Origin: Thiobacillus sp.
Lineage (GTDB): Bacteria > Pseudomonadota > Gammaproteobacteria > Burkholderiales > Thiobacillaceae
DNA: 33,918 nt
NCBI GenBank assembly: GCA_019459705.1
Contig: JAIBFE010000271.1
Location: forward strand, 1 to 33,918
Direction of reading: 5' to 3'
Translations under genes and position numbers: made by a program
Notes under the pieces: model-generated
The model's database searches: none
What the model saw: the letters and a program-made list of their open reading frames with translations, nothing else
What the model was told of the DNA's origin: nothing
Part shown: positions 4,101-33,750 of the stretch, piece by piece
How positions within the stretch are numbered: the first letter of the stretch is position 1
Layout of the letters: every line of letters begins with the position of its first letter

Positions 4101-4134
4101 AAAAGGGCGGCTACCCTCGACAGGCAGCCGCCCT
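4101..4134 (-). terminator. Rho-independent terminator of the Hsp20 gene
   Basis: On minus strand AGGGCGGCT-N13-AGCCGCCCT followed by TTTT. Confidence 0.75.
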
Positions 4135-4156
4135 CAGCCCGAAGGGCAGGTCAGGC

Positions 4157-4600: not shown

Positions 4601-4788
4601 GATCACTACTCCTCTAAAACAGGGGTGTTGATAAGAAAATCAAGCTGCCATTGCAGCTACACATTCAATGTAGACCCGTATCCGGCCAATTCAATACCCG
4701 GGCAATGCCTTGTTTCATACGGCCGGTCGGGACGGCGTCCCGCGAATCTGCCTATGATGAAGAAGCGCATGACGCCGTCTATTTCCCC

Positions 4789-7470
4789 ATGCATATCCAG
4801 AGCCTCCCTGCCGAGCACGTGCTTGCCAGCCTGCATGCCGCGGCTGGTGGACTGAGTGCGGCCGAAGCGCAGCGGCGTCTGGCGGAGTTCGGGCCCAATC
4901 ACGTCGAGGAAGTGGAGCGCGAGTCCCTTCTGCTGCGCTTCGCCCGCGAGTTCACCCACTTCTTCGCCCTCATCCTGTGGCTGGCGGCGGCGCTGGCTTT
5001 TTTCGCCGAGGCCTTCGATCCCGGCCAGGGCATGGTTCGGCTGGGCGTGGCCATCCTCGGGGTGATCCTGATCAACGGTGTCTTTTCCTTCTGGCAGGAA
5101 TACCGGGCCGAGCGTGCGGTCACCGCGCTGCGCCAGCTGCTGCCGCAGCAGGTGAAGTCCGTTCGTGCCGGCGAGACCGTGCAGCTGCTCGCAGCCGAGC
5201 TGGTGCCGGGTGACATCGTGCTGCTGGAGGAGGGCGACTTCGTGCCGGCCGACTGCCGGCTGATCGAGGCCTTCGGCCTGCGCGTCAACAGCGCGACGAT
5301 CACCGGCGAATCGCTGCCGCAGGCGCGCCATGCCGATCCGCATCCCGAGGTGTCGCCGTTTGCCGCCAGAAATATCGTGCTGGCCGGCACCTCGGTGGTG
5401 TCGGGGCAGGCGCGCGGCGTCGTCTATGCCACCGGCATGCGCACCGAGTTCGGCCGGATCGCGCACCTGACCCAGACTGCCGGGGCGGTCATCTCGCCGC
5501 TGCAGCGCGAGATCGTGCGGCTTTCCCGCATCGTGGCGGTTCTTGCCAGCGGCATCGGCGTCGTGTTTTTCCTCATCGGCCAGGCGCTCGGCCTGCCGTT
5601 CTGGGAGAACCTGCTGTTCGCCATCGGCATCATCGTCGCCAACGTGCCCGAAGGCCTGTTGCCGACGGTGACGCTGTCGCTCGCCATGGCGACGCAGCGC
5701 ATGGCGAAGCGCAATGCGCTGGTGCGACACCTGCCTGCAGTGGAAACGCTCGGCTCGACTACGGTGATCCTCTCCGACAAGACCGGCACCCTGACGCAGA
5801 ACCGCATGGCGGTGCGGCGCCTGTGGCTGGGCGGCGGATTCTTCACGTCGCAGGACATCGCGGCGCAACCGCGCCTGGTCGTGAACCACCTCGCGCTCTT
5901 CGTCAACGCCGCGCTCTGCCACAACCTGAAAGAACTGAATCATCAGGGCAGGCACGAATGGCTGGGCGACCCGATGGAAGCCGCGCTGGTCGCCATGGGA
6001 CGCGATGCGGCCGGCTCGCTCGACAGCGTCGCCCGGCTCGACGAACTCCCGTTCGACACCGATCGCAAGCGCATGTCGGTTCGCTGCGATACCCCGCAGG
6101 GGCCCATGCTTTACTGCAAGGGCGCGCTGGAGACGGTGCTCGCGGTGTGCGATTTCGTGCAGACCGAAGGCACGGTCGTGCCGCTCGACGCTGCCGCCCG
6201 ATCGCAGCTGCTCGCTGCGCAGGACGAGATGGCCGGGGCCGGACTGCGTGTGCTGGCTTTTGCCCATGCGCCGGCGCCGTGCGGCCTGCCTGCCACGGAA
6301 GGGGGCATGACCCTGTCCGGCCTGGTCGGGCTGGAGGACCCGCCGCGCCCCGAGGTGGCCGATGCCATATCACGCTGCGCCGAGGCTGGCATCCGCGTCA
6401 TCATGGTCACCGGCGACCACCCGCATACCGCGCTCGCCATCGCCCGCGAGATCGGGTTGGTGAAAACGGCGCAGCCGGTCGTCATCAGCGGGGACGACCT
6501 GCGTCGCCTGTCGCCTGCCCAGCTGCAGTTCGCGCTGGACGCACCGGAAATCCTGTTCGCCCGCGTCGGCGCAGAGCAGAAAATGCATCTTGTCGAAGCC
6601 CTGCAGAAAAAGGGCGAGATCGTCGCCGTCACGGGCGACGGCGTCAACGACGCGCCCGCGCTGAAGACCGCCGACATCGGCATCGCCATGGGAGTTGCCG
6701 GCACCGACGTCGCCAAGGAAGCGGCCGACCTGATCCTGCTCGACGACAATTTCGCCAGCATCGTCGCAGCCATCGAGGAGGGGCGCGCGGTGTTCGACAA
6801 CCTGCGCAAGTTCCTTACCTACATCCTGTCGTCGAACATTCCGGAGCTGGTGCCCTATCTCGCCTTCGTGCTGTTCCGCATCCCGCTGCCGCTCACCATC
6901 ATCCAGATTCTCGCGGTCGACCTCGGCACCGACATGCTCCCTGCGCTCGCCCTCGGCGCCGAAAAACCCGATCCCGCCGTCATGCGGCGCCCGCCGCGTG
7001 CGCGCAGCGAGCGCCTGCTGTCGTGGAACCTGATCGCCCGCGCCTACCTCTTCCTCGGCGTGCTCGAAGCGGGCGCCGCCATGGCCGTGTTCTTCTTCGT
7101 CCTCGATGCCGCCGGCTGGCAATACGGCGAATCCCTGGCGCGAAACGCGCCGCTCTATCTCGAGGCCACCACTGCCTGCCTTGCGGCCATCGTGATTACG
7201 CAGGTGATGAACGTCTTCCTCTGCCGCCATCCGCAGCGTTCGGTTTTTAGCTTCGGCTTGTTCAGCAACCCGCTCATCCTGCTCGGCATCACGGCCGAGA
7301 TCGGACTGCTGCTGTTCATCGTCTACACCCCGGCAGGCAACTGGCTGTTCGGCACGGCACCGGTGGGGGCAGAGGTTTGGCTGATTGCCGTGGCGCTGGC
7401 GGGTTTGATGGGGACCGCGGAGGAGGTGCGAAAAACGTGGGTGCGGCGGTTCCACGGGGGACGTTCTTGA
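4789..7470 (+). CDS. P-type (P2) cation-transporting ATPase
   Basis: TGES, DKTGTLTQNRM phosphorylation site, MVTGDHPHTA, TGDGVNDAPALKTADIGIAMG; start 4789 preferred over 4651. Confidence 0.93.
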   Translation: MHIQSLPAEHVLASLHAAAGGLSAAEAQRRLAEFGPNHVEEVERESLLLRFAREFTHFFALILWLAAALAFFAEAFDPGQGMVRLGVAILGVILINGVFSFWQEYRAERAVTALRQLLPQQVKSVRAGETVQLLAAELVPGDIVLLEEGDFVPADCRLIEAFGLRVNSATITGESLPQARHADPHPEVSPFAARNIVLAGTSVVSGQARGVVYATGMRTEFGRIAHLTQTAGAVISPLQREIVRLSRIVAVLASGIGVVFFLIGQALGLPFWENLLFAIGIIVANVPEGLLPTVTLSLAMATQRMAKRNALVRHLPAVETLGSTTVILSDKTGTLTQNRMAVRRLWLGGGFFTSQDIAAQPRLVVNHLALFVNAALCHNLKELNHQGRHEWLGDPMEAALVAMGRDAAGSLDSVARLDELPFDTDRKRMSVRCDTPQGPMLYCKGALETVLAVCDFVQTEGTVVPLDAAARSQLLAAQDEMAGAGLRVLAFAHAPAPCGLPATEGGMTLSGLVGLEDPPRPEVADAISRCAEAGIRVIMVTGDHPHTALAIAREIGLVKTAQPVVISGDDLRRLSPAQLQFALDAPEILFARVGAEQKMHLVEALQKKGEIVAVTGDGVNDAPALKTADIGIAMGVAGTDVAKEAADLILLDDNFASIVAAIEEGRAVFDNLRKFLTYILSSNIPELVPYLAFVLFRIPLPLTIIQILAVDLGTDMLPALALGAEKPDPAVMRRPPRARSERLLSWNLIARAYLFLGVLEAGAAMAVFFFVLDAAGWQYGESLARNAPLYLEATTACLAAIVITQVMNVFLCRHPQRSVFSFGLFSNPLILLGITAEIGLLLFIVYTPAGNWLFGTAPVGAEVWLIAVALAGLMGTAEEVRKTWVRRFHGGRS

Positions 7471-7659: not shown

Positions 7660-9057
7660 ATGAAGACAGGCAGCTACGCCCCTCCCGACAAAATTATGGA
7701 TCTGCTGCTCGACGCTGTCTGCGTCGTGGACATCCAGGGGCGGTTTGTTTTTGTCAGCGCGGCGTGCGAGCTGGTTTTCGGTTACACACCGGAGGAAATG
7801 GTCGGCAGGCCGATGATCGACTTTGTGTTTTCCGAAGACCGGGCGAGGACGCTGGAGGTGGCTGACAATGTCGTGGCCGGGCAGCCGCTGCTCCATTTCG
7901 AGAACCGATATGTGCGCAAGGATGGCCAGGTCGTCCATATCATGTGGTCGGCCCGTTGGTCGGAGGCAGATCAAATGAGGTTTGCCGTGGCGCGGGACAT
8001 CACGGATCGCAAGCGTGCCGATGCCCTGCAGGCCTCACTCTATGCCATTTCTGACGCAGCGCACTCCGCGGAAGACCTGGACGTCTTGTTCCGGCACATC
8101 CATCAGATCATTGGCGGATTGTTGCCAGCAGCCAATTTCTTCGTTGCGCTATACGATGAAAAAAAGGACGAGTTGACCTTCCCTTACTACGTTGACGAAT
8201 CCGGTCAGGCGCCTGCGCCGCAGAAACTGGATTCGTCGACGCTGAGTGCGGAGATCATCCGCAGCGGGCAGGCCCAGCTTGCGGCACCCGATGCCGGCGA
8301 GAGGCAGCCCGGGCTTGGCCGGCCCGATGTCGGCAGGGATTCATCGAACTGGCTGGGCGTCCCGCTCCACGCAAAAAAAGGGGTCATCGGCGCGCTGGTG
8401 GTGCAGAGCAGTCGCGCTGATATGCGGTATACCGAAAAAGACATCGAACTGCTGCAGTTTATCGCTGCGCAGATCGCGCCTGCGATCGAACGCAAACAGA
8501 TGGAGGCCTGGCTGCAGCATATTGCGCAGCACGATCCGCTGACCGGTCTGCCCAACCGCGAGCTGTTCCACGACCGCTTGCAAACCGCGCTGCTCCTGGC
8601 AGAACGGAATCAGACCCGGCTGGCCCTGTTGTACCTTGATCTGGACAAATTCAAGCAGGTGAACGACACCCTGGGACATCCCGTTGGCGACCTCCTGCTA
8701 CAGGAGGCGGCGCGCCGTCTCAGGCAGTGCGTACGTGACTCGGATACGGTCGGGCGCGTCGGCGGTGACGAGTTCATGGTGCTGCTCAACGGCATTCCGC
8801 TGCGGGAGCATGCCTTGTCAATCGCCGAAAAAATCCGGGTGGCCTTCGATTACCCCTTTGAACTGGCCGGTCATTCGGTGCATATCTCGCCGAGCATTGG
8901 CATCGCGCTTTATCCGGAACAGGGCGACGATTACAAGCAGCTGATCCGGGATGCCGACGAAGCGATGTACGACGCCAAAAAGAAGGGCGGCAACCGTGCC
9001 CAGATAAGCGCCAGGCCCGGCATTCTCAAAGAGCCGCGATACCAGAAGACGGCCTGA
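7660..9057 (+). CDS. PAS-GAF-GGDEF diguanylate cyclase
   Basis: N-terminal PAS (VFVSAACELVFGYTPEEMVGR), central GAF-like region, GRVGGDEFMVLL intact GGDEF motif. Confidence 0.92.
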   Translation: MKTGSYAPPDKIMDLLLDAVCVVDIQGRFVFVSAACELVFGYTPEEMVGRPMIDFVFSEDRARTLEVADNVVAGQPLLHFENRYVRKDGQVVHIMWSARWSEADQMRFAVARDITDRKRADALQASLYAISDAAHSAEDLDVLFRHIHQIIGGLLPAANFFVALYDEKKDELTFPYYVDESGQAPAPQKLDSSTLSAEIIRSGQAQLAAPDAGERQPGLGRPDVGRDSSNWLGVPLHAKKGVIGALVVQSSRADMRYTEKDIELLQFIAAQIAPAIERKQMEAWLQHIAQHDPLTGLPNRELFHDRLQTALLLAERNQTRLALLYLDLDKFKQVNDTLGHPVGDLLLQEAARRLRQCVRDSDTVGRVGGDEFMVLLNGIPLREHALSIAEKIRVAFDYPFELAGHSVHISPSIGIALYPEQGDDYKQLIRDADEAMYDAKKKGGNRAQISARPGILKEPRYQKTA

Positions 9058-9216: not shown

Positions 9217-11898
9217 ATGTCTGTCGTTTCATCTGTCTGCTGTTATTGCGGCACCGGCTGCGGGGTGCTGATCGAGGCCGACGCCGGGACAATCACCGGC
9301 GTGCGCGGCGATCCGGCGCATCCGGCCAACCGCGGCAAGCTGTGCACCAAGGGTGCGACGCTGCATTTGTCGGCGGTCGCCTCCGGTCGTGCGCTGCATC
9401 CAGAGCTGCGCGACGATCGCGCGTCGCCGCGCCGGCGAGTGGGCTGGGACGTGGCGCTCGATCATGTCGCCGAGACATTCCGCGCGGTCATCCGTGAATA
9501 CGGCCCCGATGCGGTGGCCTTCTATATATCGGGCCAGCTCACCACCGAGGCGTACTACGTCTTCAACAAGCTCGCCAAGGGCCTGATCGGCACCAACAAC
9601 GTCGACACCAATTCGCGCCTGTGCATGTCGTCCGCCGTGGCGGGCTACAAGGCCACTCTGGGCGCCGATTCGCCGCCCGGCTGCTACGACGACATCGAGG
9701 CGGCCGGCACGATCTTCATTGCAGGCTCGAACACCGCGTATGCGCACCCGATCCTGTTCCGCCGCATCGAGGAGGCGCGCAAGCGCAATCCCGGCATGAA
9801 GCTGGTCGTGGTCGACCCGCGCCGCACCGACACCGCGGCCGAAGCCGACCTGCATCTCGCCATCCTGCCCGGCACCGATGTCGCGCTGTTCCACGCGATG
9901 CTCAACGTCATGCTGTGGGAGGAGCTGATCGACCGCGCCGCCATCACCGCACACACCGAAGGCTGGGAGGCACTGCGCGATCGGGTGCGCGATTACACGC
10001 CGGAAAAGGTCGCGCCGATCTGCGGCGTGGCAGCAAGCGACATCGTGCAGGCCGCGCGCTGGTTCGCCCAAGGGCCGACGCTGTCGCTGTATTGCCAGGG
10101 ACTCAACCAGTCCAGCTGCGGCGTCGACAAGAATGCCGCGCTGATCAACCTGCATCTGGCTACCGGGCAGATCGGCAAGCCCGGCGCCGCGCCGCTGTCG
10201 CTCACCGGCCAGCCCAATGCGATGGGCGGGCGCGAGGTGGGCGGGCTGGCGAACCTGCTGTCGGCGCACCGCGATATGAACAACCCCGAGCATCGCGCCG
10301 AGGTCGCGCGGCTGTGGGGCGTTGAGGACGTGCCGGCAACGCCGGGCAAGACCGCGGTGGAGCTGTTCGAGGCGGTGAGGCGCGGCGAAATCAAGGCGGT
10401 CTGGATCGCCTGTACCAATCCCGCGCAGTCGCTGCCCGACCAGAATCTTGTGCACGAGGCGCTGCAGGCCGCTGAATGCGTCGTGCTGCAGGAAGCCTTT
10501 GCCGACACGGAAACCGCGCCGTATGCCGATGTGCTGCTGCCGGCGTCCACCTGGGGCGAAACCGATGGCACCATGACCAATTCGGAGCGCTGCATTTCGC
10601 GCGTCCATGCTGCCGTGCCGCTGCCCGGAGAGGCACGCCCTGACTGGGCCATCGTCAGCGACTTTGCGCGTCGGCTGATGCCGGAAATGGGGGCGCGGCT
10701 GTTTCCTTACGACAGTGCCGAGGCCGTCTTCAACGAACACCGTGAAACCACGCGCGGGCGCGATCTCGATATCAGCGGCCTGAGCTACGCACTGCTCGAT
10801 GCCGGCCCGCAGCAATGGCCGTTCCCCGAGGGCGAGACGGCAGGCAGGGTGCGTCTCTACGCCGATGGCATCTACCCGACGGCCAGTGGCCGCGCGCACT
10901 TCCACACCGCGCCGTACCGCCCGGTTGCGGAGCCCATCGACGCGCGCTATCCGCTGCACCTCAACACCGGCCGCCTGCGTGACCAGTGGCATGCGATGAG
11001 CCGCACCGGCCGCGTGGCGCGGCTGTTCGCCCATGCCGATACGCCGTTGCTGTCGATGGCGCAGCGCGATCTTGAATTGCGCAGATTGAAAGCGGGCGAT
11101 CTGGTGCGTGTGAAAAGCCGGCGCGGCGAGGTGATGGTGGCGGTCGAGGCGAGCGACAGCCTGCGCCCCGGTCAATGCTTTTTGCCGATGCACTGGGGCG
11201 CGCGCTTCATGGGAGGTCGCGGCATCAATGCGCTTACCCTGCCGGCCTTCGATGCGGTGTCGAAGCAGCCCGAACTGAAGCATGCCGCGGTGCAGGTGGC
11301 CAAGGCTGACCTTCCCTGGCGCATGGCCGCGCTGGCGGTGGGCGATGGCGCCAAGCTGCTCGACGCCGTGCAGCCCCTGCTGCGCGCCTGCGACTACGCC
11401 GCTGCCGGACTGGCGGGGCGCGACCGGGACGTGCTGACATTGCGTCTGGCGCATACCGGGCCCTTGCCGGACGAATTGCTGTCCGAACTCGATGCTGCGC
11501 TGGGATTGGATGATCCGCTCGCGGTGATGCACTACCAGGACAGTCCGCGCGGCATTTCCAAGCGTGTGCGCGTCGAGTCCGGCAAGGTCGTCGCCGCACG
11601 GCTCACCGGCGAGACCGCCGCCTTCGACTGGCTGCGTGATGTGATCATCGAGGGCGCCGATGCGGTGTCGTTGCGGGCCTGGATGCTCGCGCCGGTGGCC
11701 CGCCCGCCCGCAGGCGGGGCAGGGCGCGGCCGCATCGTGTGCAACTGCCTGAACGTGGCCGAGCCCGACATCGTCGCAGCGATCACGGCAGGGGCCGATC
11801 TGGCCGCATTGCAGGCCACGCTGAAATGCGGCACCGAATGCGGTTCGTGCGTGCCGGAACTGAAACGGCTGATCGCAAGCAACCGGGCGGCGGCATGA
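9217..11898 (+). CDS. nasA: Assimilatory nitrate reductase catalytic subunit with C-terminal BFD-like [2Fe-2S] domain
   Basis: N-terminal CCYCGTGCGVLIE [4Fe-4S], molybdopterin oxidoreductase body, C-terminal CNCLNV...CGTECGSCVPELK. Confidence 0.93.
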   Translation: MSVVSSVCCYCGTGCGVLIEADAGTITGVRGDPAHPANRGKLCTKGATLHLSAVASGRALHPELRDDRASPRRRVGWDVALDHVAETFRAVIREYGPDAVAFYISGQLTTEAYYVFNKLAKGLIGTNNVDTNSRLCMSSAVAGYKATLGADSPPGCYDDIEAAGTIFIAGSNTAYAHPILFRRIEEARKRNPGMKLVVVDPRRTDTAAEADLHLAILPGTDVALFHAMLNVMLWEELIDRAAITAHTEGWEALRDRVRDYTPEKVAPICGVAASDIVQAARWFAQGPTLSLYCQGLNQSSCGVDKNAALINLHLATGQIGKPGAAPLSLTGQPNAMGGREVGGLANLLSAHRDMNNPEHRAEVARLWGVEDVPATPGKTAVELFEAVRRGEIKAVWIACTNPAQSLPDQNLVHEALQAAECVVLQEAFADTETAPYADVLLPASTWGETDGTMTNSERCISRVHAAVPLPGEARPDWAIVSDFARRLMPEMGARLFPYDSAEAVFNEHRETTRGRDLDISGLSYALLDAGPQQWPFPEGETAGRVRLYADGIYPTASGRAHFHTAPYRPVAEPIDARYPLHLNTGRLRDQWHAMSRTGRVARLFAHADTPLLSMAQRDLELRRLKAGDLVRVKSRRGEVMVAVEASDSLRPGQCFLPMHWGARFMGGRGINALTLPAFDAVSKQPELKHAAVQVAKADLPWRMAALAVGDGAKLLDAVQPLLRACDYAAAGLAGRDRDVLTLRLAHTGPLPDELLSELDAALGLDDPLAVMHYQDSPRGISKRVRVESGKVVAARLTGETAAFDWLRDVIIEGADAVSLRAWMLAPVARPPAGGAGRGRIVCNCLNVAEPDIVAAITAGADLAALQATLKCGTECGSCVPELKRLIASNRAAA

Positions 11899-13193: not shown

Positions 13194-13220
13194 GACCGAA
13201 TGCAACGGCGTATCTCGGTC
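13194..13220 (+). promoter_or_regulatory. Leader hairpin with ANTAR-type hexaloop (A1,G4) in nirB 5'UTR
   Basis: GACCGAATGC-[AACGGC]-GTAT(c)TCGGTC; 10 bp with one bulge; downstream of predicted sigma-54 start site. Confidence 0.45.
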
Positions 13221-13252: not shown

Positions 13253-15709
13253 ATGGATATGAGTACGCCCATGGGACAGGGTCCCAAGATGAAGCTCGTG
13301 ATGGTCGGCAACGGCATGGCCGGGGTGCGCACGCTGGAAGAGCTGCTGAAGCTCGCGCCCGACCTCTACGACATCACCGTGTTCGGCGCCGAGCCGCACC
13401 CCAACTACAACCGCATCCTGCTCTCCCCGGGGCTCGCCGGCGAGCAGACGGTCGATGACATCGTGCTGAACCCGCTCGACTGGTACAACGACAACAACAT
13501 CACCCTGCACCTCGGCAAGAAGGTGGTGAAAATAGACCGCACCGCGCGTGCAGTCGAAGCCGACGACGGTACCCGCGCCGAATACGACCGCCTGTTGCTT
13601 GCTACCGGCTCCAATCCTTTCATCCTGCCGGTGCCCGGCGCCGACCTTGAAGGCGTGATCAGCTTCCGCGACATCGCCGACGTCGATGCGATGATCCGCG
13701 CCTCCAGCCAGTATCGCCACGCGGTCGTCATCGGCGGCGGCCTGCTCGGCCTGGAGGCCGCCAACGGGCTGATGAAGCGTGGCATGGAGGTGAGCGTGGT
13801 GCATATCGGGCCGTGGCTGATGGAGCGCCAGCTCGACGAGCCCGCCGCACGTTTGCTGCAGAAAAGCCTGGAAGAAAAGGGCATGAAGTTTTTGCTGCAG
13901 AAGCAGACGGCTGAACTCGTGCAAGGCGAGTCCGGAAGAGTAGCTGCAATCAAGTTCAAGGACGGCGACAGCGCGCCGGCTGACCTGGTCGTGATGGCCG
14001 TCGGCATCCGCCCCAACACCGAGCTCGCCGAATCGTCCGGTCTGCATTGCAACCGCGGCATCGTGGTCAACGACACCATGCAGACCTTCGACCCGCGCAT
14101 CTATTCCATCGGCGAGTGCGCCGCGCATCGCGGCATCGCCTACGGTCTGGTTGCGCCGCTGTTCGAGCAGGCCAAGGTGTGCGCCAACCATCTGGCGCAT
14201 TACGGCATCGGCCGCTACCAGGGCTCGGTGACCTCGACCAAGCTCAAGGTCACCGGTATCGATCTCTTTTCCGCCGGCGATTTCATGGGCAGCGAGGGCA
14301 CCGAGGCCATCCTCTATTCCGACCCCATCGGCGGCGTCTACAAGAAGCTCGTCATCAAGGACAACAAGCTGGTCGGCGGCGTGATGTACGGCGATACCGT
14401 CGACGGTGCCTGGTATTTCTCGCTGCTGCGCGACGGCAAGGACGTCACCGAGCTGCGCGACCATCTGATGTTCGGCCAGGACCATTGTGGCAACCTCGGC
14501 CACCAGGGCATCAACAAGGCCGCGACGATGACCGACGACATGGAGGTGTGCGGCTGTAATGGCGTGTGCAAGGGCGACATCGTCAAGGCGATCCGCGAGA
14601 AGGGCCTGTTCACACTGGAGGATGTGCGCAAGCACACCAAGGCGTCGTCGTCGTGCGGATCGTGCACGGGCCTCGTCGAGCAGATCCTGGCGGTCACCGC
14701 GGGCGGCGACTATTACGCCGCGCCGAAGACGAAATCCATGTGCGGCTGCACCGACCACACCCACGAGGCGGTGCGCGAGGCGATCCGCCAGAACAAGCTG
14801 CTGACGATTCCGCAGGTGATGACCTTCATGGAATGGCGCACGCCCAACGGCTGCGCATCGTGCCGTCCCGCGCTCAACTACTACCTGATCTCCACCTGGC
14901 CGGGCGAGGCCGAGGACGATCCGCAGTCGCGCTTCATCAACGAGCGCGCTCACGCCAACATCCAGCGCGACGGCACCTACTCGGTGATCCCGCGCATGTG
15001 GGGCGGGCAGACCACGCCGGCCGAACTGCGCCGCATCGCCGATGTTGCCGAGAAATACGCCATCCCCTCGGTGAAGGTCACCGGCGGCCAGCGCATCGAT
15101 CTGCTCGGAGTGAAGAAGGAAGACCTGCCCAAGGTGTGGGCCGACCTCGACATGCCGTCGGGTCACGCCTACGGCAAAGCGTTGCGTACGGTGAAGACCT
15201 GCGTCGGCTCCGAGTGGTGCCGCTTCGGCACCCAGGATTCGACCCAGATGGGGATCGATCTCGAGAAAGTGTTCTTCAAGATGTGGGCGCCGCACAAGGT
15301 CAAGCTCGCGGTGTCAGGCTGCCCGCGCAATTGCGCCGAAGTCGCGATCAAGGATGTCGGCATCATCGGCGTCGATTCGGGCTGGGAAATCTATGTCGGC
15401 GGCAACGGCGGCATCAAGACCGAGGTCGCGCAATTCCTCGTCAAAGTGAAGACGCCAGACGAGGTGCTCGAGTATTCCGGCGCCTTCCTGCAGCTGTACC
15501 GCGAGGAAGCACGCTACCTCGACCGCACCGTGCACTACCTCGAGCGTGTCGGCCTCGACTACGTGAAGAAAAAAATCCTCGACGACCACGAAGGCCGGCG
15601 CGCGCTGTACGAACGCCTGCTGTTCGCACTGTCGGTCGAGCGCGACCCCTGGGTCGAGCGCGCTAAGGAAGGAAAGCTCAAGCATGAATTCGAAACCGTC
15701 GCCGCATAA
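13253..15709 (+). CDS. nirB: Nitrite reductase [NAD(P)H] large subunit
   Basis: FAD/NAD(P) oxidoreductase N-terminus, CGCNGVCKGDI and CGSC motifs, sulfite/nitrite reductase C-terminus with TCVGSEWCRFG and SGCPRNCAEVAIKDVG. Confidence 0.97.
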   Translation: MDMSTPMGQGPKMKLVMVGNGMAGVRTLEELLKLAPDLYDITVFGAEPHPNYNRILLSPGLAGEQTVDDIVLNPLDWYNDNNITLHLGKKVVKIDRTARAVEADDGTRAEYDRLLLATGSNPFILPVPGADLEGVISFRDIADVDAMIRASSQYRHAVVIGGGLLGLEAANGLMKRGMEVSVVHIGPWLMERQLDEPAARLLQKSLEEKGMKFLLQKQTAELVQGESGRVAAIKFKDGDSAPADLVVMAVGIRPNTELAESSGLHCNRGIVVNDTMQTFDPRIYSIGECAAHRGIAYGLVAPLFEQAKVCANHLAHYGIGRYQGSVTSTKLKVTGIDLFSAGDFMGSEGTEAILYSDPIGGVYKKLVIKDNKLVGGVMYGDTVDGAWYFSLLRDGKDVTELRDHLMFGQDHCGNLGHQGINKAATMTDDMEVCGCNGVCKGDIVKAIREKGLFTLEDVRKHTKASSSCGSCTGLVEQILAVTAGGDYYAAPKTKSMCGCTDHTHEAVREAIRQNKLLTIPQVMTFMEWRTPNGCASCRPALNYYLISTWPGEAEDDPQSRFINERAHANIQRDGTYSVIPRMWGGQTTPAELRRIADVAEKYAIPSVKVTGGQRIDLLGVKKEDLPKVWADLDMPSGHAYGKALRTVKTCVGSEWCRFGTQDSTQMGIDLEKVFFKMWAPHKVKLAVSGCPRNCAEVAIKDVGIIGVDSGWEIYVGGNGGIKTEVAQFLVKVKTPDEVLEYSGAFLQLYREEARYLDRTVHYLERVGLDYVKKKILDDHEGRRALYERLLFALSVERDPWVERAKEGKLKHEFETVAA

Positions 15710-15718
15710 GGAGCCGAC

Positions 15719-16051
15719 ATGAGCCAATGGACCGACATCCTGGATGTGAACGACATCCCCAAACTCGGCGCCCGCGTGGTGCGCCACGGCACACTCGACA
15801 TCGCCGTGTTCCGCACCGCCGACGATGAAGTGTTCGCGCTGGAAGACCGCTGCCCGCACAAGGGCGGCCCGCTCTCGCAGGGCATCGTGCACGGCAGGAA
15901 GGTGACCTGTCCGATGCACAACTGGAACATCGAGCTCGACTCCGGCTGCGCGGTGGCGCCGGATCACGGCTGTGCGCGCGAATTCCCCATCAAGCTCGAA
16001 GGCGGTCGCGTGTGGCTCGATCTGTCGGAGGTTTCGCGCGTCGCCGCCTGA
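15719..16051 (+). CDS. nirD: Nitrite reductase small subunit (Rieske-type)
   Basis: CPHKGGPLSQGIVHGRKVTCPMHNWNI Rieske-like motif; directly follows nirB. Confidence 0.95.
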   Translation: MSQWTDILDVNDIPKLGARVVRHGTLDIAVFRTADDEVFALEDRCPHKGGPLSQGIVHGRKVTCPMHNWNIELDSGCAVAPDHGCAREFPIKLEGGRVWLDLSEVSRVAA

Positions 16052-23915: not shown

Positions 23916-26900
23916 TTAACGCCGACGCAGATCGAGCGTGTGCGGGAATTCGCCGGGCAGTTCCTCCGGAGGCGGCGCCATCGGGCCGGGCGGCGTGCCA
24001 TCGGGGAAGAAGCGGGCGAGCGGGGCGATCCCCGGCGGCGGGGTGAAGCTGCCGGGGGTGTGCCCCCAGGCCTGGAAGCGGTTGTGGCGACGCGACTCGG
24101 CTTCCCAGGCGTTGACCGGGAAGGTGTCGTAGCTGCGGCCGCCGGGATGGACGACGCGGTAGGTGCAGCCGCCGATGGCGCGGCCGTTCCAGGTGTCGAT
24201 CAGGTCGAACACCAGCGGCGAATGGATGCCGATGGTGGGGTGCAGCGCGGAGGGCGGCTGCCACGCGCGGTAGCGCACCCCGGCGACGAATTCGCCGTGT
24301 ACACCGGTGCTGCGCAGCGGTACGCGGCGTCCGTTGCAGGCGAGCACGTAGCGGCTGTCGGTGAGCCCGCTGACCTTGACCTGCAGGCGCTCGACCGAGG
24401 AATCGACATAGCGTGCGGTGCCCAGGCTGGTTGATTCCTCGCCCAGCACGTGCCAGGGTTCGATCGCGGTGCGCAGCTCGATCTGGATGTCGCCGAGTTC
24501 CAGCGTGCCGTGGCGCGGGAAGCGGAATTCGAGGAAGGGCGCGAACCAGTCTAGGTCGAACGCAAAACCCGCGGCCTTCAGGTCGTTGACCACGTCCTTC
24601 AGGTCAGCCCACAAATAATGCGGCAGCATGTAGCGGTCGTGCAGCAGCGTGCCCCAGCGCACCAGCGGCTTCTGGTAGGGCTGTTTCCAGAAGCGCGCAA
24701 CCAGGGCGCGCAGCAGCAGCATCTGCGCCAGGCTCATGCGCGCGTGCGGCGGCATCTCGAAGGCGCGGAACTCGACGAGCCCCAGCCGCCCCGACGACGA
24801 GTCGGGCGAATACAGCTTGTCGATGCAGAACTCCGAGCGGTGGGTGTTGCCGGTCAGGTCGGTGAGCAGGTTGCGCAGCAGGCGATCCACCAGCCACGGC
24901 TGCGGCACCTCGCCCTGCGGCATTTGCTGGAAGGCGATCTCGAGTTCGTACAGCCGTTCCGGCCGCCCCTCGTCGACGCGCGGCGCCTGGCTGGTGGGAC
25001 CGATGAAGAGGCCGGAGAACAGGTAGGACAGTGCCGGGTGGTGCTGCCAGTAGGTGATGAAGCTCGCCAGCAGATCGGGGCGACGCAGGAAGGGACTGTC
25101 GGCCGGGGTGGCGCCGCCGAGGGTGACGTGGTTGCCGCCACCGGTGCCGGCGTGACGGCCGTCTAGCATGAATTTCTCGGTGCCCAGGCGCGACAGGCGC
25201 GCTTCCTCGTAGAGCATGGTGGTGGTCTTGACCAGGTCCGCCCAGCTGCTGGCGGGATGGATGTTGACCTCGATCACGCCGGGGTCGGGGGTGACCATGA
25301 GCTTTTCGATGCGGCCGTCGCCGGGCGGGGGGTAGCCCTCGATGATCACCGGCATCTTGAGCAGGGCGGCGGTGGATTCGATCGCCGCCAGCAGGTCGAG
25401 GTACTGCTCCAGTGTGGTGGTGGGCGGCATGAACACGTGCAGGCCGCCGCCGCGCGCTTCCACGCACAGCGCGGTGTGCGGCACCTCGACGGATTCCTTG
25501 GTGGTCGGCGTTTGCGGATGGATCCGGGGATGGCCGGACGCGGGGTCGAGATGGAGGCTGTAGCGGGCCGCGACCTCGCCGTGAAAATTCGCCAGCGGCG
25601 GCTGCACCGCGAATGGGTCGACCTCGACCCAGGGTTCGCGCTCGTCTTCAGCCACCCACGGCAGCGAGGCCAGCGGCAGGCGCAGCCCCATCGGCGAATC
25701 GCCCGGGGTGAGATAAAGGCGGTCGCGGCGGAATACCCAGGGTGCGCTGTGCCAGCGCTGTTCGTGCATGCGCCAGGCCAGCGGCAGCACATAGCCGGTC
25801 GGCGTGTTGAGGCCGCGCGACAGCTTGTTGGCGAGGTCGCCGCGCACTACCGGGTCGTCGATGTCGAGCCGCGCCGGGTTGAGGTTGACTGGCAGCTCGG
25901 CCTCCTGCTGCAGCGTGGCCATGGCGTCCTCGTAGGCCGGTTGCGCATAGCGCGCAGCGAGTCCGAGATGCTGCGCCAGGGTGGCGGCAAAGTGCTGGGC
26001 GTCGCCGACGCTGTGGCCGTAGTCCCACCCGGCCTCGGCCAGCAGCGCGTCGTCCTTCCACACCGGCACGCCGTCACGCCGCCAGTACAGACCCAGCGCC
26101 CAGCGCGGCAGCGGTTCGCCCGGGTACCACTTGCCCTGGCCGGTATGCAGCAATGAACCGGCCGGCAGTTTTTGCTTGAGACGCCGCACCAGCACCTCGG
26201 CGCGCTCGCGCTTGTGCTTTCCCAGTGCATCGATGTTCCATTCCGGTGCATCCATGTCGTCGATCGACACGAAGGTGGGCTCGCCGCCGTGCGTCAGGCG
26301 CACGTCCATCGCCTGTAGCTTTTCGTCGACGGCGTGCCCCAGCGCCAGCATCGTCTGCCAGGCTTCGTCGCTATACGGCAGGGTCACGCGCGGGTCCTCG
26401 CGGATGCGGGTGACAGTGTTGGAAAAACTGAACTCGACCTCGCACGGATCGGTCATGCCGTCGATCGGCGCGGCGGACGACGGCTGCGGCGTGCAGGCGA
26501 GCGGAATGTGGCCTTCGCCGGCGAACAGCCCCGAGGTGGGGTCGAGGCCGATCCAGCCGGCGCCCGGCAGATAGACCTCGGCCCAGGCGTGCAGGTCGGT
26601 GAAGTCGGCTTCCGGTCCGGAGGGGCCGTCCAATGATTTTTCGTCGGCAGTCAGTTGCACCAGGTAACCCGACACGAAGCGCGCCGCCAGCCCCAGATGG
26701 CGCAGGATCTGCACCAAGAGCCAGGCCGTGTCGCGGCACGAGCCGAGCGCCTTTTCCAGCGTCTCCTCGCAGGGCTGGATGCCCGGCTCCATGCGCACGG
26801 TGTAGCCGATATCGTGTTGCAACCGCTGGTTGAGCGCGACCAGAAAGTCATTGCTGTGCACCCGCTCGCGCGGCACCTCGGCCAGCCAGGCGGCGAGCCG

Positions 26901-27275
26901 CTCGCCCGCCGGTTCGGTTTCGAGATAGGGCGCGAGTTCGCGCTTCAGGGCCGCGTCGTAGTCGAACGGCCAGTGAAAGGCGCTGTCCTCGATGAAGTAG
27001 TCGAAGGGGTTGATCACCGTCATGTCGGCGATCACCTCGACGTCGACCGAGAATTCCCGCGTCGCCTCTGGGAACACCAGCCGTGCCAGGTAATTGCCGA
27101 ATGGATCCTGCTGCCAGTTGATGAAGTGCGTCTCCGGCGTGATCTTCAACGTGTAGGCGAGGATGGGGGTGCGCGAATGCGGCGCTGGCCGCAGCCGCAC
27201 CACATGCGGACCCAGGGTCACGCGGCGGTCGAACGTGTAGACGGTGGTGTGGCGAAGCGCGACGTGGGTGCTCAT
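23916..27275 (-). CDS. Transglutaminase-like N-terminus fused to DUF2126 (1119 aa)
   Basis: [28 protein letters not shown]...[23 protein letters not shown]; long C-terminus of DUF2126 type ([31 protein letters not shown]). Confidence 0.93.
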
Positions 27276-27323: not shown

Positions 27324-27402
27324 GGGGTTAGGGGCTAGGAATTAGGATCTAGGGTATGAGCGGCCTCGGCCGCGCCTCCCTCTGACTCCTGACCCCCAAA
27401 CT
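27321..27402. repeat. Intergenic dispersed repeat, copy 1
   Basis: ccaggggttaggggctaggaattaggatctaggg + GC-rich hairpin (GCGGCCtcGGCCGC) + ctcctgaccccc; similar layout at 29998-30090. Confidence 0.55.
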
Positions 27403-28184
27403 TATCCCTGCATCTGCCCGCCCGTATTGCTCGCCACCACCTGCAGCGGCTGCGGCTGGTTTTCCCATTCGAAGGCCGGCAGGTAGATCAGCGACTGGCG
27501 CAGGCCATCGATCCAGGCGTCGCCCAGCGCACGGTAATAGGGATGGTCTTCGGAAAACAGCAGGCGGCGCCCGCTGTCGAGCGCGTTGGCAGAATAGATC
27601 AGCAGTTCGACCGGCGGGCCGACGGTGAGGTTGGAGCGGATGGTCGAGTTGATCGAGACCAGTGCGCAGCGGGCGGCCTGTTCGAGCGGGGTGTCGGGGC
27701 GGATGACGCGGTCGAGGATGGGCTTGCCGTACTTGGTTTCGCCGATCTGCAAAAACGGATGCGCAGCCGATTCGTGGATGTGGTTGCCCTGCGGGTAGAT
27801 CATGTAGATCTCGGGCGTCTGTCCGGCGATCTGGCCGCCGAAGATGAAGGTGGCCTCGAAGTTGGTGCTGGCGGTGTCGCGCGCGGCCTGGGTGCGCTGC
27901 ACGTCGGCCGAGATCGAGCCGACGTAATCGACCGCGTCGCTCATTGACGTGAGGGTGTTCAGGCATGGCGGGTTGCCGAGCTGACAGTCGTCGCGCAGCC
28001 GCTTCACCACGGCCTGCGTGGTGGCGAGATTGCCCGCTGCCAGCAGCACGAACATGCGGTTTCCAGGCTGCACGAAGGTATGCATCTTGGAATAGGTGCT
28101 GACGTGATCGATCCCCGCGTTGGTGAGCGAGTCGGAGGCAAAAACCAGCCCGCTGTCGGTCTTGATGGCGACGCAGTAAGTCAT
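27402..28184 (-). CDS. Anbu-type proteasome-like peptidase (COG3484)
   Basis: MTYCVAIKTDSGLVFASDSLTNAGIDHVSTYSKMHTF; beta-subunit-like N-terminus, cluster partners COG2307/2308/1305. Confidence 0.88.
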   Translation of the reverse strand: MTYCVAIKTDSGLVFASDSLTNAGIDHVSTYSKMHTFVQPGNRMFVLLAAGNLATTQAVVKRLRDDCQLGNPPCLNTLTSMSDAVDYVGSISADVQRTQAARDTASTNFEATFIFGGQIAGQTPEIYMIYPQGNHIHESAAHPFLQIGETKYGKPILDRVIRPDTPLEQAARCALVSINSTIRSNLTVGPPVELLIYSANALDSGRRLLFSEDHPYYRALGDAWIDGLRQSLIYLPAFEWENQPQPLQVVASNTGGQMQG

Positions 28185-29178: not shown

Positions 29179-29976
29179 TCAGGCGGCCTCTTTCGGCCTC
29201 ATCTGGCGGCTGTACAGGAATTCCAGCACCTGGCTGCGCAGCTCGTGGTAGTGCGGATCGTGCGCCAGCGCCAGACGGTCGCGCGGACGCGCCAGATCCA
29301 CCGTGAGAATCTCGCCGATGGTGGCGGCCGGGCCGTTGGTCATCATCACGATGCGGTCGGACAGCAGTACTGCCTCGTCGACGTCGTGCGTCACCATGAT
29401 GACAGTGCTCTTGGTTGCCGCGACGATCTTCATCAATTCGTCCTGCAGGTGGGCGCGGGTCAGGGCGTCAAGCGCGCCGAAGGGTTCGTCCATCAGCAGT
29501 ACCTTGGGCTCCATCGCCAGCGCGCGGGCAATGCCGACGCGCTGCTTCATGCCGCCGGATATTTCGCCAGGCAGCTTGTTCGCAGCGTGGGTCAGGCCGA
29601 CGAGATCGAGTGCGGCACTGGTGCGCGCCTTCAGCTGCGCTTTCGATTCGTTGCCGCCGAACACCTTTTCCACTGCGAGGTAGACGTTTTCGAACGCGGT
29701 CAGCCAGGGCAAAAGGGAATGATTCTGGAACACCACCGAGCGTTCCGGCCCCGGTCCCTTGATTTCCTTGTTGGCGAGCAGCAGCACGCCGTCGGTGGCG
29801 TCGAGCAGGCCGGCCACCAGGTTGAGCAGGGTGGATTTGCCGCAGCCGGAATGGCCGATCAGTGCGATGAATTCGCCCTGGTCGACATGGAGGTTGATGT
29901 CGGTCAGTGCGGTGAACCTGCCTTTTTTGGTGCTGAACACCATGCCGGCGTTTTCGATCTGGACGTAGGATTGCAT
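29179..29976 (-). CDS. nrtD: Nitrate ABC transporter ATP-binding protein
   Basis: [17 protein letters not shown] Walker [33 protein letters not shown] signature/Walker B; NrtD-type. Confidence 0.92.
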
Positions 29977-29997: not shown

Positions 29998-30090
29998 AGG
30001 GGCTAGGAACTGGAATCTAGGATCTAGGGAGCGGTGCGGCTTCGCCGTGCCACTTTCCCTAACCCCTGGTTCCTGGCTCCTGGTTCCTCA
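29998..30090. repeat. Intergenic dispersed repeat, copy 2
   Basis: aggggctaggaactggaatctaggatctaggg + hairpin GGTGCGGCttcGCCGTGCC + ccctaacccctggttcctggctcctggttcctcag. Confidence 0.55.
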
Positions 30091-30990
30091 GTCGTAACTA
30101 AACCGTTTCGCGATCAGCATCAGCGCCTGTTCGAGCAGCAGCCCGACGATACCGACGACGAAGATGGCGATGATGATGTGGGCGACGTTGAGGTTGTTCC
30201 ATTCGTCCCACACCCAGAAGCCGATGCCGACGCCGCCGGTGAGCATTTCGGCGGCGACGATCACCAGCCAGGCCACGCCGATCGCCAGCCGCACGCCGGT
30301 CAGCACGTAGGGCAGCACCGCCGGGAACAGGATCTTGGTGAACACCTTGAATTCCGACAGATTCAGCACCCGCGCCACGTTCAAATAATCCTGCGGAATG
30401 CGCTGCACGCCGGCGGCGGTGTTGAGCACCATCGGCCAGATGCTGGAAATGAAGATCACCCAGATCGACGCCGGCTCGGCCTTTTGCAGCACCAGGAGCC
30501 CGATCGGCAGCCAGGCCAGCGGCGATACCGGGCGCAGGATGCTGATGATGGGCGACAGCATGCGGTTGAGAAAGTCGAAGCGGCCGATCATGAAACCGAG
30601 CGGAATGCCGACGGCGGCGGCAAGGCCGAAGCCGATGCCGACCCGGTAAAGGGAGTTGAGAATGTTCCAGCCGATGCCCTGATCGTTGGGGCCGTTGTCA
30701 TAGAACGGGTCGGAGAACAGCGCCACTGCGGCATCCCAGGTTTCGGCGGGTCCCGGGATACTCTTGCCGCTGTTGGCCACCAGTGCCCACAGCGCGACGA
30801 ACAGCAGCATCCCCAATAGCGGCGGGATGGCGTTCTTGACGAGACTGGCAGCGCCCTCGATCAGGCGCTTGCCGGATGCGGTCTCGAAATAAGGGGTACG
30901 CCGCCTGGGAGCGGCACTGGGCACCTGGACGATATCCGGTCCTGACAGGATATCGTCCAGCTGTTCGCTTGTTGCATTGACTGCGCTCAT
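30088..30990 (-). CDS. nrtB: Nitrate ABC transporter permease
   Basis: Multi-TM with permease EAA-type region; located between nrtA and nrtD. Confidence 0.92.
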   Translation of the reverse strand: MSAVNATSEQLDDILSGPDIVQVPSAAPRRRTPYFETASGKRLIEGAASLVKNAIPPLLGMLLFVALWALVANSGKSIPGPAETWDAAVALFSDPFYDNGPNDQGIGWNILNSLYRVGIGFGLAAAVGIPLGFMIGRFDFLNRMLSPIISILRPVSPLAWLPIGLLVLQKAEPASIWVIFISSIWPMVLNTAAGVQRIPQDYLNVARVLNLSEFKVFTKILFPAVLPYVLTGVRLAIGVAWLVIVAAEMLTGGVGIGFWVWDEWNNLNVAHIIIAIFVVGIVGLLLEQALMLIAKRFSYD

Positions 30991-31024: not shown

Positions 31025-31438
31025 TCATGCCGGCGCGTAGGCGGCCTGCTTCATGACGGAGGCGAGGGTGGTGTAGGCCTCGGTCCAGGCGGCCTCCACC
31101 GGCGGGGTGAATTGCTCGCCCAGCCCTGTGCCCAGCGTCCATAGCAGGGCGCTGCCCACCGTGTCGTAATGCGCTTCGGTCACGCCGTAGGCGACGTGGC
31201 GGCGTCCCAGGTCCTCGATCGCGCCCAGCATGGGCCCGAGCCGATCGAGGCTCATGACGACCGTGTTGATCATCGTCATCAGCTTGCGTCCCTGTTCCGC
31301 CATATCCCCCTTGAACAGGGGGCGCAAAGACGGATCGAGTTCGAACAGGCGGCCATAGAACAGCTCGGCAGCGGCCTTCTGGATGGGCAGCACCTGCTGC
31401 CAGCTGCTTTTTACCAGTGCGATTTTTTCGGGTGTCAT
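31025..31438 (-). CDS. Single-domain globin (flavohaemoglobin/Vitreoscilla-type family)
   Basis: MTPEKIALVKSSWQQVLPIQKAAAELFYGRLFELDPSLRPLF... HVAYGVTEAHYDTVGSALLWTL...WTEAYTTLASVM. Confidence 0.88.
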   Translation of the reverse strand: MTPEKIALVKSSWQQVLPIQKAAAELFYGRLFELDPSLRPLFKGDMAEQGRKLMTMINTVVMSLDRLGPMLGAIEDLGRRHVAYGVTEAHYDTVGSALLWTLGTGLGEQFTPPVEAAWTEAYTTLASVMKQAAYAPA

Positions 31439-31457: not shown

Positions 31458-32729
31458 TCAGGCCTTGATCTTGAAGCTGTCGGCGTAGGCCTTGGGGTTC
31501 TTGCCGTCCCACACCACGCCGTCGATCAGCTTCGAGGTGCGCATGTCGGACTTCGGCAGCGGCGTCTTGGTCATCGCAGCGGCCTGCTTGTAGATGTCGA
31601 TGCGGTTGACCTTCTTCGCCACCGCCAGATAGTCGGGGTGATCCTTCAGCAGGCCCCAGCGCTTGTGCTGGGTGAGGAACCACATGCCGTCCGACAGGTA
31701 GGGGAAGCCGACGATGCCATTGTTGTAGAACTTCATGTAGTTGGGGTCAGACCACTTCTTGCCGATGCCGTTGTCGTACTGGCCCAGCATGCGGTCTTCG
31801 ATCGAGTCGAAGTCGGTGTTGACGTATGACTTGGCCGAAATGATCTTGGCCACTTCGGAGCGATTGCTCATGGTGTCGATGTATTTCGACGCGTCGAGAA
31901 TCGCCGCTACCATGGCGCGCGCGGTGTTGGGATATTGCGCGACGAAGTCGGCGGTGGTGCCGAGCACCTTCTCCGGATGGTCTTTCCAGATTTCCTGCGT
32001 GGTGGCGGCGGTGAAGCCGATGTTGTCGCGGTTCGCGCGCGCGTTCCACGGTTCGCCTACGCAGAAGCCGTCCATGTTGTCGACGCGCATGTTGGCGACC
32101 ATCTGCGGCGGTGGCACGGTGATCACCTTGGCCTGGGTGAAGGGATTGATGCCGTGTGCGGCCAGCCAGTAATACAGCCACATCGCGTGGGTGCCGGTGG
32201 GGAAGGTCTGCGCGAAGGTGTATTCCTTCGGTTCGGCCGCCACCAGTTTGGCGAGCGATGCGCCATCGGTCACGCCCTTGGCCTTGAGCTGGTTCGACAG
32301 CGTGATTGCCTGGCCATTGTGGTTCAGGTTGGCCAGCACCGCCATGTCCTTCTTCGGGCCGCCGATGCCCATCTGCACGCCGTAGATCAGGCCGTACAGC
32401 ACGTGCGCGGCATCGAGTTCGCCGTTCACCAGCTTGTCGCGCACTGCCGCCCACGAGGCTTCCTTGGTCGGCGTGATGGTGAGGCCGTATTTCTTGTCGA
32501 AGCCCTTCACCGAGGCCATCACCACAGACGCGCAGTCGGTCAGCGGAATGAAGCCGATGTTGAGGTTGGGCTTCTCGGGGGCGTCGGAGCCGGCGGCCCA
32601 GGCACCCTGGCGCACGCCGGGCGGCACCATGGCCATGAGGGCGGCGGCGACGGAAATTCCGGTGGTCTTTTTCATGAAATCACGCTTGCTCGGGTCTTGC
32701 ACAAGGGGTTTGTCCTGGGTGTCGCTCAC
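31458..32729 (-). CDS. nrtA: Nitrate ABC transporter substrate-binding protein (NrtA/CmpA type), GTG start, Tat-like signal
   Basis: SKRDFMKKTTGISVAAALMAM signal; NIGFIPLTDCASVVMA...GFCVGEPWNARA. Confidence 0.93.
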   Translation of the reverse strand: MSDTQDKPLVQDPSKRDFMKKTTGISVAAALMAMVPPGVRQGAWAAGSDAPEKPNLNIGFIPLTDCASVVMASVKGFDKKYGLTITPTKEASWAAVRDKLVNGELDAAHVLYGLIYGVQMGIGGPKKDMAVLANLNHNGQAITLSNQLKAKGVTDGASLAKLVAAEPKEYTFAQTFPTGTHAMWLYYWLAAHGINPFTQAKVITVPPPQMVANMRVDNMDGFCVGEPWNARANRDNIGFTAATTQEIWKDHPEKVLGTTADFVAQYPNTARAMVAAILDASKYIDTMSNRSEVAKIISAKSYVNTDFDSIEDRMLGQYDNGIGKKWSDPNYMKFYNNGIVGFPYLSDGMWFLTQHKRWGLLKDHPDYLAVAKKVNRIDIYKQAAAMTKTPLPKSDMRTSKLIDGVVWDGKNPKAYADSFKIKA

Positions 32730-32745: not shown

Positions 32746-32778
32746 AAAAAAGGCGTCGCCTTCAGGGCGGACGCCTTT
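32746..32778 (-). terminator. Intrinsic terminator in the nrtA leader (attenuator)
   Basis: Minus strand AAAGGCGTC-cGCCctgaaGGC-GACGCCTTTTTT, 17 nt before the GTG. Confidence 0.85.
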
Positions 32779-32783
32779 GTCCA
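32768..32783 (-). promoter_or_regulatory. ANTAR-type hairpin 2 of the nrtA leader, overlapping the terminator
   Basis: UGGAC-[AAAGGC]-GUCCG; hexaloop with A1 and G4; its loop and 3' arm form the terminator 5' arm. Confidence 0.65.
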
Positions 32784-32812
32784 GTAATGAAAGAGTTGAC
32801 GGTCACGCTGAA

Positions 32813-32830
32813 AGCCACATCGTTGCGACT
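32813..32830 (-). promoter_or_regulatory. ANTAR-type hairpin 1 of the nrtA leader
   Basis: AGUCGC-[AACGAU]-GUGGCU; hexaloop with A1 and G4; 6 bp including two wobbles. Confidence 0.6.
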
Positions 32831-32845
32831 GTTCAGTTCTGCTGT

Positions 32846-32861
32846 AGCAACCGTTGTGCCA
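32846..32861 (-). promoter_or_regulatory. Sigma-54 promoter (full consensus match) of nrtA operon
   Basis: Minus strand TGGCAC-AACGG-TTGCT, GG-N10-GC. Confidence 0.8.
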
Positions 32862-32937
32862 GCTGGCTGAGTCCCTTGTATTGCAAGGATTTTATTGAAA
32901 CGGGGCCGGGTCGGGACCGGGGCTGTCCGGTGCGTTC

Positions 32938-32954
32938 TGCACTCATGCAGTGCA
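32938..32954 (-). promoter_or_regulatory. NtrC-like site upstream of nrtA
   Basis: TGCAC-TGCATGA-GTGCA, exact TGCAC-N7-GTGCA, about -111 from predicted start site. Confidence 0.65.
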
Positions 32955-32990: not shown

Positions 32991-33554
32991 TCAGGCCGGT
33001 TTTTGCAGAATCTGCCGTGCAATGTCCGCCAGCTTCAGGCCGCGGTCCATCGCGGCGCGGCGCATCTCGCGATACACCTCGGGTTCCGATGCGCCGGTCT
33101 GCTTGATCAGCAGGGCCTTGGCCTGGTCGATCAGCTTGCGCTCGCTGAGTTCGAGCCGGGTCTGTTCGAGCTGGTCGTGCAGCGCCTGGAAGGCTTCGAA
33201 GCGCGACACCGCCACGTCGAGGATCGGCCGGATGCGCGCCGGGTCGAGTCCGTCCACCACATAGGACGTCACGCCCGCCTGCGTCGCTGCGCGGATCGAA
33301 TCCGGGCTGCCGTCGTCGGTGAACATCACGATCGGACGCGGACAGTCCTGGTTCACCACGCAGATGTGCTCCAGCGTGTCGCGATCCGGCGAGTCCTGCG
33401 CAATGATCACCACGTCCGGACGCAATGCCTGGATCTGTACGTCCAGGCTGCGCGCTGAATTGAGCGTGGCCGTCACCACGCAGCCCGTCGCCTCCAGCGC
33501 CGGCACCAGCATCGCCAGCCGGTCAGGCTGGTTTTCAACAATCAGTACGCGCAT
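32991..33554 (-). CDS. nasT: NasT-like response regulator with C-terminal ANTAR RNA-binding domain
   Basis: Receiver-like N-terminus MRVLIVENQPDRLAMLV...; ANTAR C-terminus LSERKLIDQAKALLIKQTGASEPEVYREMRRAAMDRGLKLADIARQIL. Confidence 0.92.
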   Translation of the reverse strand: MRVLIVENQPDRLAMLVPALEATGCVVTATLNSARSLDVQIQALRPDVVIIAQDSPDRDTLEHICVVNQDCPRPIVMFTDDGSPDSIRAATQAGVTSYVVDGLDPARIRPILDVAVSRFEAFQALHDQLEQTRLELSERKLIDQAKALLIKQTGASEPEVYREMRRAAMDRGLKLADIARQILQKPA

Positions 33555-33580: not shown

Positions 33581-33608
33581 AAAAAAAGGCGGCCTCCGGA
33601 GAGGCCGC
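33581..33608 (-). terminator. Intrinsic terminator in the nasT leader
   Basis: Minus strand GCGGCCTC-TCCG-GAGGCCGC + CTTTTTTT, between predicted sigma-54 promoter and nasT ATG. Confidence 0.82.
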
Positions 33609-33669
33609 AAAATCGGAGGAGACTGCCTGAGCAACCTGGCCTTGCGGTTTGGATACTCAATCAGGATAT

Positions 33670-33685
33670 AGCAGGGGGCGTGCCA
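33670..33685 (-). promoter_or_regulatory. Sigma-54 promoter of nasT
   Basis: Minus strand TGGCAC-GCCCC-CTGCT, GG-N10-GC, one mismatch. Confidence 0.6.
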
Positions 33686-33750
33686 GCTTCAAGATTGGTT
33701 AATTATCAAATGCTTATGTGTTTTTGAAGCGTGCGTGACAGGGGCCGGGG

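Follow-up and report, generated by a model that had tools for sequence, protein, structure and literature searches.

In the characterized NasS-NasT systems, NasS is a cytoplasmic homologue of the nitrate-binding protein NrtA and holds NasT until nitrate binds. NasT-dependent antitermination at the NalA leader, with a sigma-54 promoter and NtrC, is described for Pseudomonas in PMC12830290, and the NalA/P11 leader of nirBD is controlled by NasS-NasT (PMC3795266 and PMC12830290, citing Romeo 2012 and Nie 2024). In Paracoccus, NasT binds the nasA leader (PMC3795266), and mutations in the hairpins of this leader disturb both expression and growth on nitrate (PMC5424462). The mechanism itself is therefore already known, from NasT-NalA in Pseudomonas and from Paracoccus and Klebsiella. 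Here we propose that the nitrate uptake operon of Thiobacillus is likewise subject to NasT antitermination, based on a contig of 33,918 nucleotides from Thiobacillus sp. (JAIBFE010000271.1, analysed over its whole length and referred to as the window). The main interest lies in the circuit around the nrtA leader, which, judging from sequence, differs from the known systems in three features: NasS was not found, NasT has an alanine at position 52, and the two hairpins are widely spaced.

An ANTAR-type leader between nasT and nrtA

Reading the minus strand directly from nasT to nrtA, one meets in succession an NtrC-like dyad, a sigma-54 promoter, a first hairpin, a linker, a second hairpin and a terminator:

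32938-32954, minus strand: NtrC-like dyad TGCACT-N5-AGTGCA (TGCACTGCATGAGTGCA), at about -105 from the predicted start
32847-32862, minus strand: sigma-54 promoter CTGGCACAACGGTTGC, an exact consensus with GG at -24 and GC at -12; predicted +1 near 32835
32808-32836, minus strand: hairpin 1 with its extended CUGAA/UUCAG stem below one bulged C
32813-32830, minus strand: hairpin 1 core, AGUCGC[AACGAU]GUGGCU
32784-32812, minus strand: linker, 29 nt when counted from the hairpin 1 core
32768-32783, minus strand: hairpin 2, UGGAC[AAAGGC]GUCCG, the putative antiterminator
32746-32778, minus strand: intrinsic terminator AAAGGCGUC...GACGCCUUUUUU, with a 5' arm common to the loop and 3' arm of hairpin 2

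The initial annotation had read this stretch as an ANTAR/NasT antiterminator leader, and the sequence comparisons presented here support that reading. The promoter, the two hairpins, the linker of about 29 nt and the terminator all lie where it had placed them; it had overlooked only the CUGAA/UUCAG extension of hairpin 1, from which the linker measures ~24-25 nt. Its proposal that hairpin 2 and the terminator are exclusive folds also holds, since the loop and 3' arm of hairpin 2 are the 5' arm of the terminator on the minus strand. At -18.3 kcal/mol (z -4.1), the terminator stretch is more stable than hairpin 2 alone (-5.5 kcal/mol), so that the terminated form would be the default; the hairpin 1 core folds at -6.9 kcal/mol. 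We scanned for two consecutive A1/G4 hexaloop hairpins of which the second contributes its loop and arm to a T-tailed terminator; this composite occurs at a single site in the window, the nrtA leader, and at none in 100 dinucleotide shuffles. The sole candidate for another ANTAR-terminator leader within the window was a reverse-strand echo of the nrtA-leader terminator and was rejected.

The nrtA leader displays the characteristic traits of dual-hexaloop ANTAR RNAs, namely tandem hexaloop hairpins, A1 and G4 in both loops, and a second hairpin sharing sequence with the terminator 5' arm. Its assignment to the NasT class of ANTAR leaders is well supported and the corresponding mechanism is probable; we are largely confident that it serves the nrtA-globin-nrtB-nrtC operon as a transcription attenuator under the control of NasT. 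The sites found suggest that, when nitrogen is limiting, NtrC and the sigma-54 RNA polymerase would start transcription near 32835. By default, the RNA would fold hairpin 1 and then the terminator, and transcription would stop ahead of nrtA. Active NasT, if it acts as in NasT-NalA and as EutV does, would bind through its ANTAR domain the A1/G4 hexaloop of hairpin 1 and then that of hairpin 2; bound hairpin 2 would keep the terminator 5' arm, allowing read-through into the nitrate transporter genes. Termination, NasT binding and a response to nitrate are thus expected by analogy with Pseudomonas, Paracoccus and EutV.

The leader resembles NalA/P11 (RF00625) in its sigma-54/NtrC promoter, in its association with NasT, in the dual A1/G4 hexaloops, in an identical hairpin 2 (GGACAAAGGCGUCC) and in a terminator overlapping hairpin 2; a sigma-54 promoter with an upstream NtrC site, as in the NasT-NalA leaders, is predicted here too. 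Unlike NalA/P11, it precedes an nrt transport operon instead of nirBD, NasS was not found, and the hairpins lie 20-31 nt apart in Thiobacillus versus 3 nt in a P11 homologue (L149). With the Rfam P11 model, the window scores 25 bits, below the gathering score of 70, and the remaining Rfam matches in the window are at chance level. The leader is also similar to the Rfam consensus of the narK RNA (RF03032), which has a GGCAC..UUGCU promoter, a GGCAGCC[AACGGC]GGCUGCC hairpin and a CGAC[AAAGAC]GUCG hairpin; even with E up to 1, the narK RNA model matches nothing in the window, and in a Thiobacillus relative (L024) it gives 23.5 bits versus 43.2. More broadly, two A1/G4 hexaloop hairpins, the second within a terminator, are shared with eutP of Enterococcus (EutV), nasF of Klebsiella (NasR) and amiE of Pseudomonas (AmiR) (PMC3369931, PMC8934654), whereas promoter and partner proteins differ from those systems.

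Conservation of the leader in Thiobacillus

Using nasT as an anchor, we collected 35 homologous loci with 34 distinct leaders, 32 of which were aligned; the two left out are a decayed leader (L021) and that of a locus with a different gene after nasT (L060). In the latter, a large membrane sensor-like protein gene (4122-6425, plus strand) stands in place of nrtA, preceded by a diverged AAAGGC-type leader and terminator, and nrtA is located ~3.5 kb from nasT. The promoter, the folds and their conservation can be followed directly in these sequences. The A1 and G4 that had been claimed for both hexaloops are borne out in all 32 distinct Thiobacillus leaders: in loop 1, A1, A2 and G4 are kept while positions 3, 5 and 6 vary, and hairpin 2 (GGACAAAGGCGTCC) is without variation. 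In hairpin 1, 94.9% of the cells are paired and three pairs have changed on both sides, with a covariation score reached by no shuffle; the terminator arms are paired at 99%, and the whole structure at 96% versus 35-45% for slid structures. The initial annotation had named a lack of loop conservation or covariation in homologous leaders as grounds for abandoning its reading; the loops are conserved and hairpin 1 covaries.

Because the leaders are related and hairpin 2 is unvarying, covariation supports hairpin 1 and is silent on hairpin 2, which counts against the attenuator reading. Hairpin 2 is suggested instead by its invariance, by analogy and by one compensatory case, GAAC[AAAGGC]GUUC, at a locus with a divergent nasT (L087); the leader of G104, whose nasT is just 51% identical, has a hairpin 2 of the same sequence. 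Upstream, the sigma-54 promoter is kept in homologous leaders, and a GCAC...GTGC dyad precedes it in 28 of the 35 loci, mostly at -104 to -107 (1% in shuffled regions). The linker, in turn, belongs to the least-conserved class among the leader parts and is the sole long unpaired stretch, the consensus fold of the aligned leaders containing no conserved hairpin within it; in the genus, it spans 25-31 nt from the hairpin 1 core or 20-26 nt from the extended stem.

These data bear on a different reading, in which the nrtA leader would be mainly a stand-alone sRNA acting in trans, antitermination being secondary. In its favour, P11 is classed as an sRNA gene in Rfam, with a weak match (25 bits) in the window, and P11 of P. 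aeruginosa PA14 has been described as an sRNA that is sensed by worms and regulates the nitrogen assimilation operon (PMC12080996). However, conservation falls on the two ANTAR hexaloops and on the terminator instead of an exposed seed, and the linker is among the least conserved parts; the terminator is just ~16 nt away from the nrtA start codon (32729), and in Pseudomonas the same RNA is described as a NasT-controlled nirBD leader (PMC12830290). We consider this reading improbable and retain the NasT-controlled attenuator.

For this attenuator, the length of the linker is a second difficulty. EutV linkers are 5-12 nt long and lengthening them inhibits (PMC3369931, PMC8934654), as opposed to the 29 nt found here, beyond the length that EutV tolerates; a search for actinobacterial ANTAR targets used a criterion of 2-25 nt (PMC8164766). 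Since antitermination by EutV was abolished by a linker extension of 20 nt (PMC8934654), either NasT is different or the two hairpins are brought close to each other by the RNA. This raises the question of how an ANTAR protein acts on hairpins whose spacing is at least double that of eut leaders. The leader set of 32 sequences provided here shows clear loop conservation.

Distribution in the genus and beyond

A covariance model (R1) built from the 32 leaders was run on genomes of the genus, of other genera and of other families. Among the same-genus genomes, 36 of the 38 encoding NasT contain one strong match each (the exceptions being G074 and G104) and none of the 18 without NasT gives a match, a co-occurrence explained in part by physical linkage. 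In the window's own genome, R1 detected no second ANTAR-terminator leader at E below 0.01. Weaker matches occur elsewhere in the family, where other genera have them near nrtA or nirB, and in further families of the class; one such distant match (L149) scores 126 bits with the Rfam P11 model and is a genuine P11. Many distant leaders retain GGAC[AA(A/C/U)GGC]GUCC together with an upstream A1/G4 hexaloop on very different stems, such as AAGCACC[AAAGUC]GGUGCUU, CCGGUGC[AACGGC]GCAUCGG and UCCCG[ACAGAG]CGGGA. Upstream of hairpin 2, A1 and G4 are present in the best-paired hexaloop of 28 of 37 distant leaders (10% in shuffles); hairpin 1 was selected by pairing in the cross-genus tabulation, which serves as an illustration rather than as an unbiased test of covariation. 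An A1/G4 hairpin 1 is lacking in several nirB leaders from other genera. Linkers measure 26-39 nt in some sister genera of the family and 2-5 nt in others, next to the 3 nt of the P11 homologue.

NasT, the nrt operon and the search for NasS

The genes on either side of the leader are the following:

32991-33554, minus strand: nasT, receiver and ANTAR protein (PF00072, PF03861), with Ala52 at the phospho-acceptor position
31458-32729, minus strand: nrtA, exported nitrate-binding protein and first gene of the operon (PF13379, 356.9 bits; SKRDFMKK twin-arginine-like signal)
31025-31438, minus strand: single-domain globin between nrtA and nrtB (PF00042, 63.3 bits)
30088-30990, minus strand: nrtB, nitrate ABC transporter permease (TIGR01183, 257 bits, over cut-off)
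29179-29976, minus strand: nrtC, nitrate ABC transporter ATPase (TIGR01184, 345 bits, over cut-off)

NasT had been said to be encoded next door, and the neighbouring gene does encode a protein with the Pfam ANTAR domain (59.6 bits) and Response_reg; it is the only ANTAR protein found in the window's genome, an assembly of 394 contigs estimated to be 86% complete. In alignments, Ala52 is positioned opposite the Asp of EutV, Rv1626 and several other NasT proteins, and the receiver thus lacks the phospho-acceptor Asp of EutV-type ANTAR response regulators. A globin gene adjoins nrtA in other genera of the family as well (L071, L082, L083).

The pairing of a receiver-like domain with ANTAR is that of NasT in the NasS-NasT two-component system, but the cytoplasmic partner was not found. 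Using a Paracoccus NasS as query, we found no NrtA homologue devoid of an export signal, but only exported NrtA, in the window's own genome (86% complete) or in three near-complete genomes, G053 and G058 (single contig) and G106, which has the locus of T. thioparus DSM 505. Other NrtA-like proteins of several relatives were considered and rejected as NasS: these 26-28% matches are long proteins with an internal twin-arginine-like signal and are probably exported. Signal-less NrtA homologues are present in some other genera of the family (L072, L076). The arrangement recalls Paracoccus denitrificans, where an ANTAR-type leader, shown to bind NasT, also lies between the nasT locus and a nitrate assimilation operon; there, however, nasS follows nasT, whereas here it is followed by nrtA, an exported homologue. 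That NasS was not found in the genomes searched weighs against the NasT attenuator and poses the question of how nitrate is sensed by NasT in this genus.

Together with a linker outside the EutV range and the alanine at the phospho-acceptor site of the receiver, the same result could indicate that NasT no longer acts and that the leader is a decaying relic, a NasT-independent attenuator. This is highly improbable, given that the loop bases and hairpin 2 are unchanged in 32 leaders while adjoining sequence has diverged, that the leader accompanies NasT in 36 of 38 genomes as against 0 of 18 others (linkage accounting for part of this), and that similarly long linkers (26-39 nt) are kept in other genera of the family. 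We thus continue to favour an attenuator on which NasT acts.

Further RNA elements at nasT and nirB

Two other structured elements, along with the nitrate assimilation genes, were identified in the window:

33582-33686, minus strand: nasT leader with a sigma-54 site and a structured RNA, unrelated to the nrtA leader
13194-13220, plus strand: terminator-less hairpin in the nirB leader, GACCGAAUGC[AACGGC]GUAUCUCGGUC, with an A1/G4 hexaloop (-12.0 kcal/mol, z -3.0)
9217-11898: nasC-like, assimilatory-nitrate-reductase-like gene (best NCBIfam matches formate dehydrogenase, NasA and NasC, all below cut-off)
13253-15709: nirB (over cut-off)
15719-16051: nirD-like small frame

The nasT leader consists of a sigma-54 site (33686-33671) and a structured RNA (33670-33582), with a strong terminator ~27 nt before nasT. 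The structure reads GAG..CC AAA CC GNRA GG CCA GG..CUC, followed by a nearly invariant AGGCAGUCUCCUCCGA, and two of its pairs are changed on both sides. Of the 38 same-genus genomes with NasT, 34 have a strong match (at least 76 bits) to the corresponding model (R2), once per genome and adjoining nasT, and G053, G064, G093 and G104 have none; matches beyond the genus were marginal, did not include the conserved AGGCAGUCUCCUCCGA and were dismissed. No A1/G4 dual hexaloop is evident in this RNA, and its Rfam matches are not above chance. Its role may be that of a nasT attenuator or of a small RNA. In some species (L024, L025, L028), it carries an extra hairpin domain.

Shortly upstream of the nasC-like gene, as of nirB, there is a sigma-54-like site; neither gene is preceded by a terminator-type leader in the window. 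The nirB hairpin is directly before a possible stem covering the nirB ribosome-binding site, the longer fold including this stem being no better than shuffles (z -0.9). Nearly invariant, it was found in 28 of the 56 genomes of the genus, three of which (G076, G077 and G105, 79-82% complete) have no NasT match; by inspection, its stem changes mostly preserve pairing, and in G053 the loop is kept on a changed stem. A conserved leader peptide was discarded as an explanation: the short frame has lost its start codon (ATG) in G053, and differences in length displace it with respect to nirB. Because a single hexaloop is enough for EutV binding (PMC8934654) and ANTAR targets overlapping ribosome-binding sites have been described in actinobacteria (PMC8164766), translational control of nirB by NasT is possible.

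A more speculative scheme, which we think unlikely, would link these elements to the nrtA leader: Thiobacillus would have rewired NasT into a NasS-free circuit, in which the sigma-54 attenuator of nasT itself, an undescribed structured RNA, sets the amount of NasT, and NasT opens nrtA by long-linker antitermination and nirB through the terminator-less hexaloop beside the ribosome-binding site.

Two further gene neighbourhoods were noted in the window. A GGDEF protein is encoded directly upstream of the nasC-like gene (7660-9057, plus strand); c-di-GMP is reported to inhibit NasT in Pseudomonas putida (cited in PMC12830290). Downstream of the nrt operon, on the minus strand, a proteasome-subunit-like protein (27402-28184) adjoins a transglutaminase/DUF2126 protein (23916-27275).
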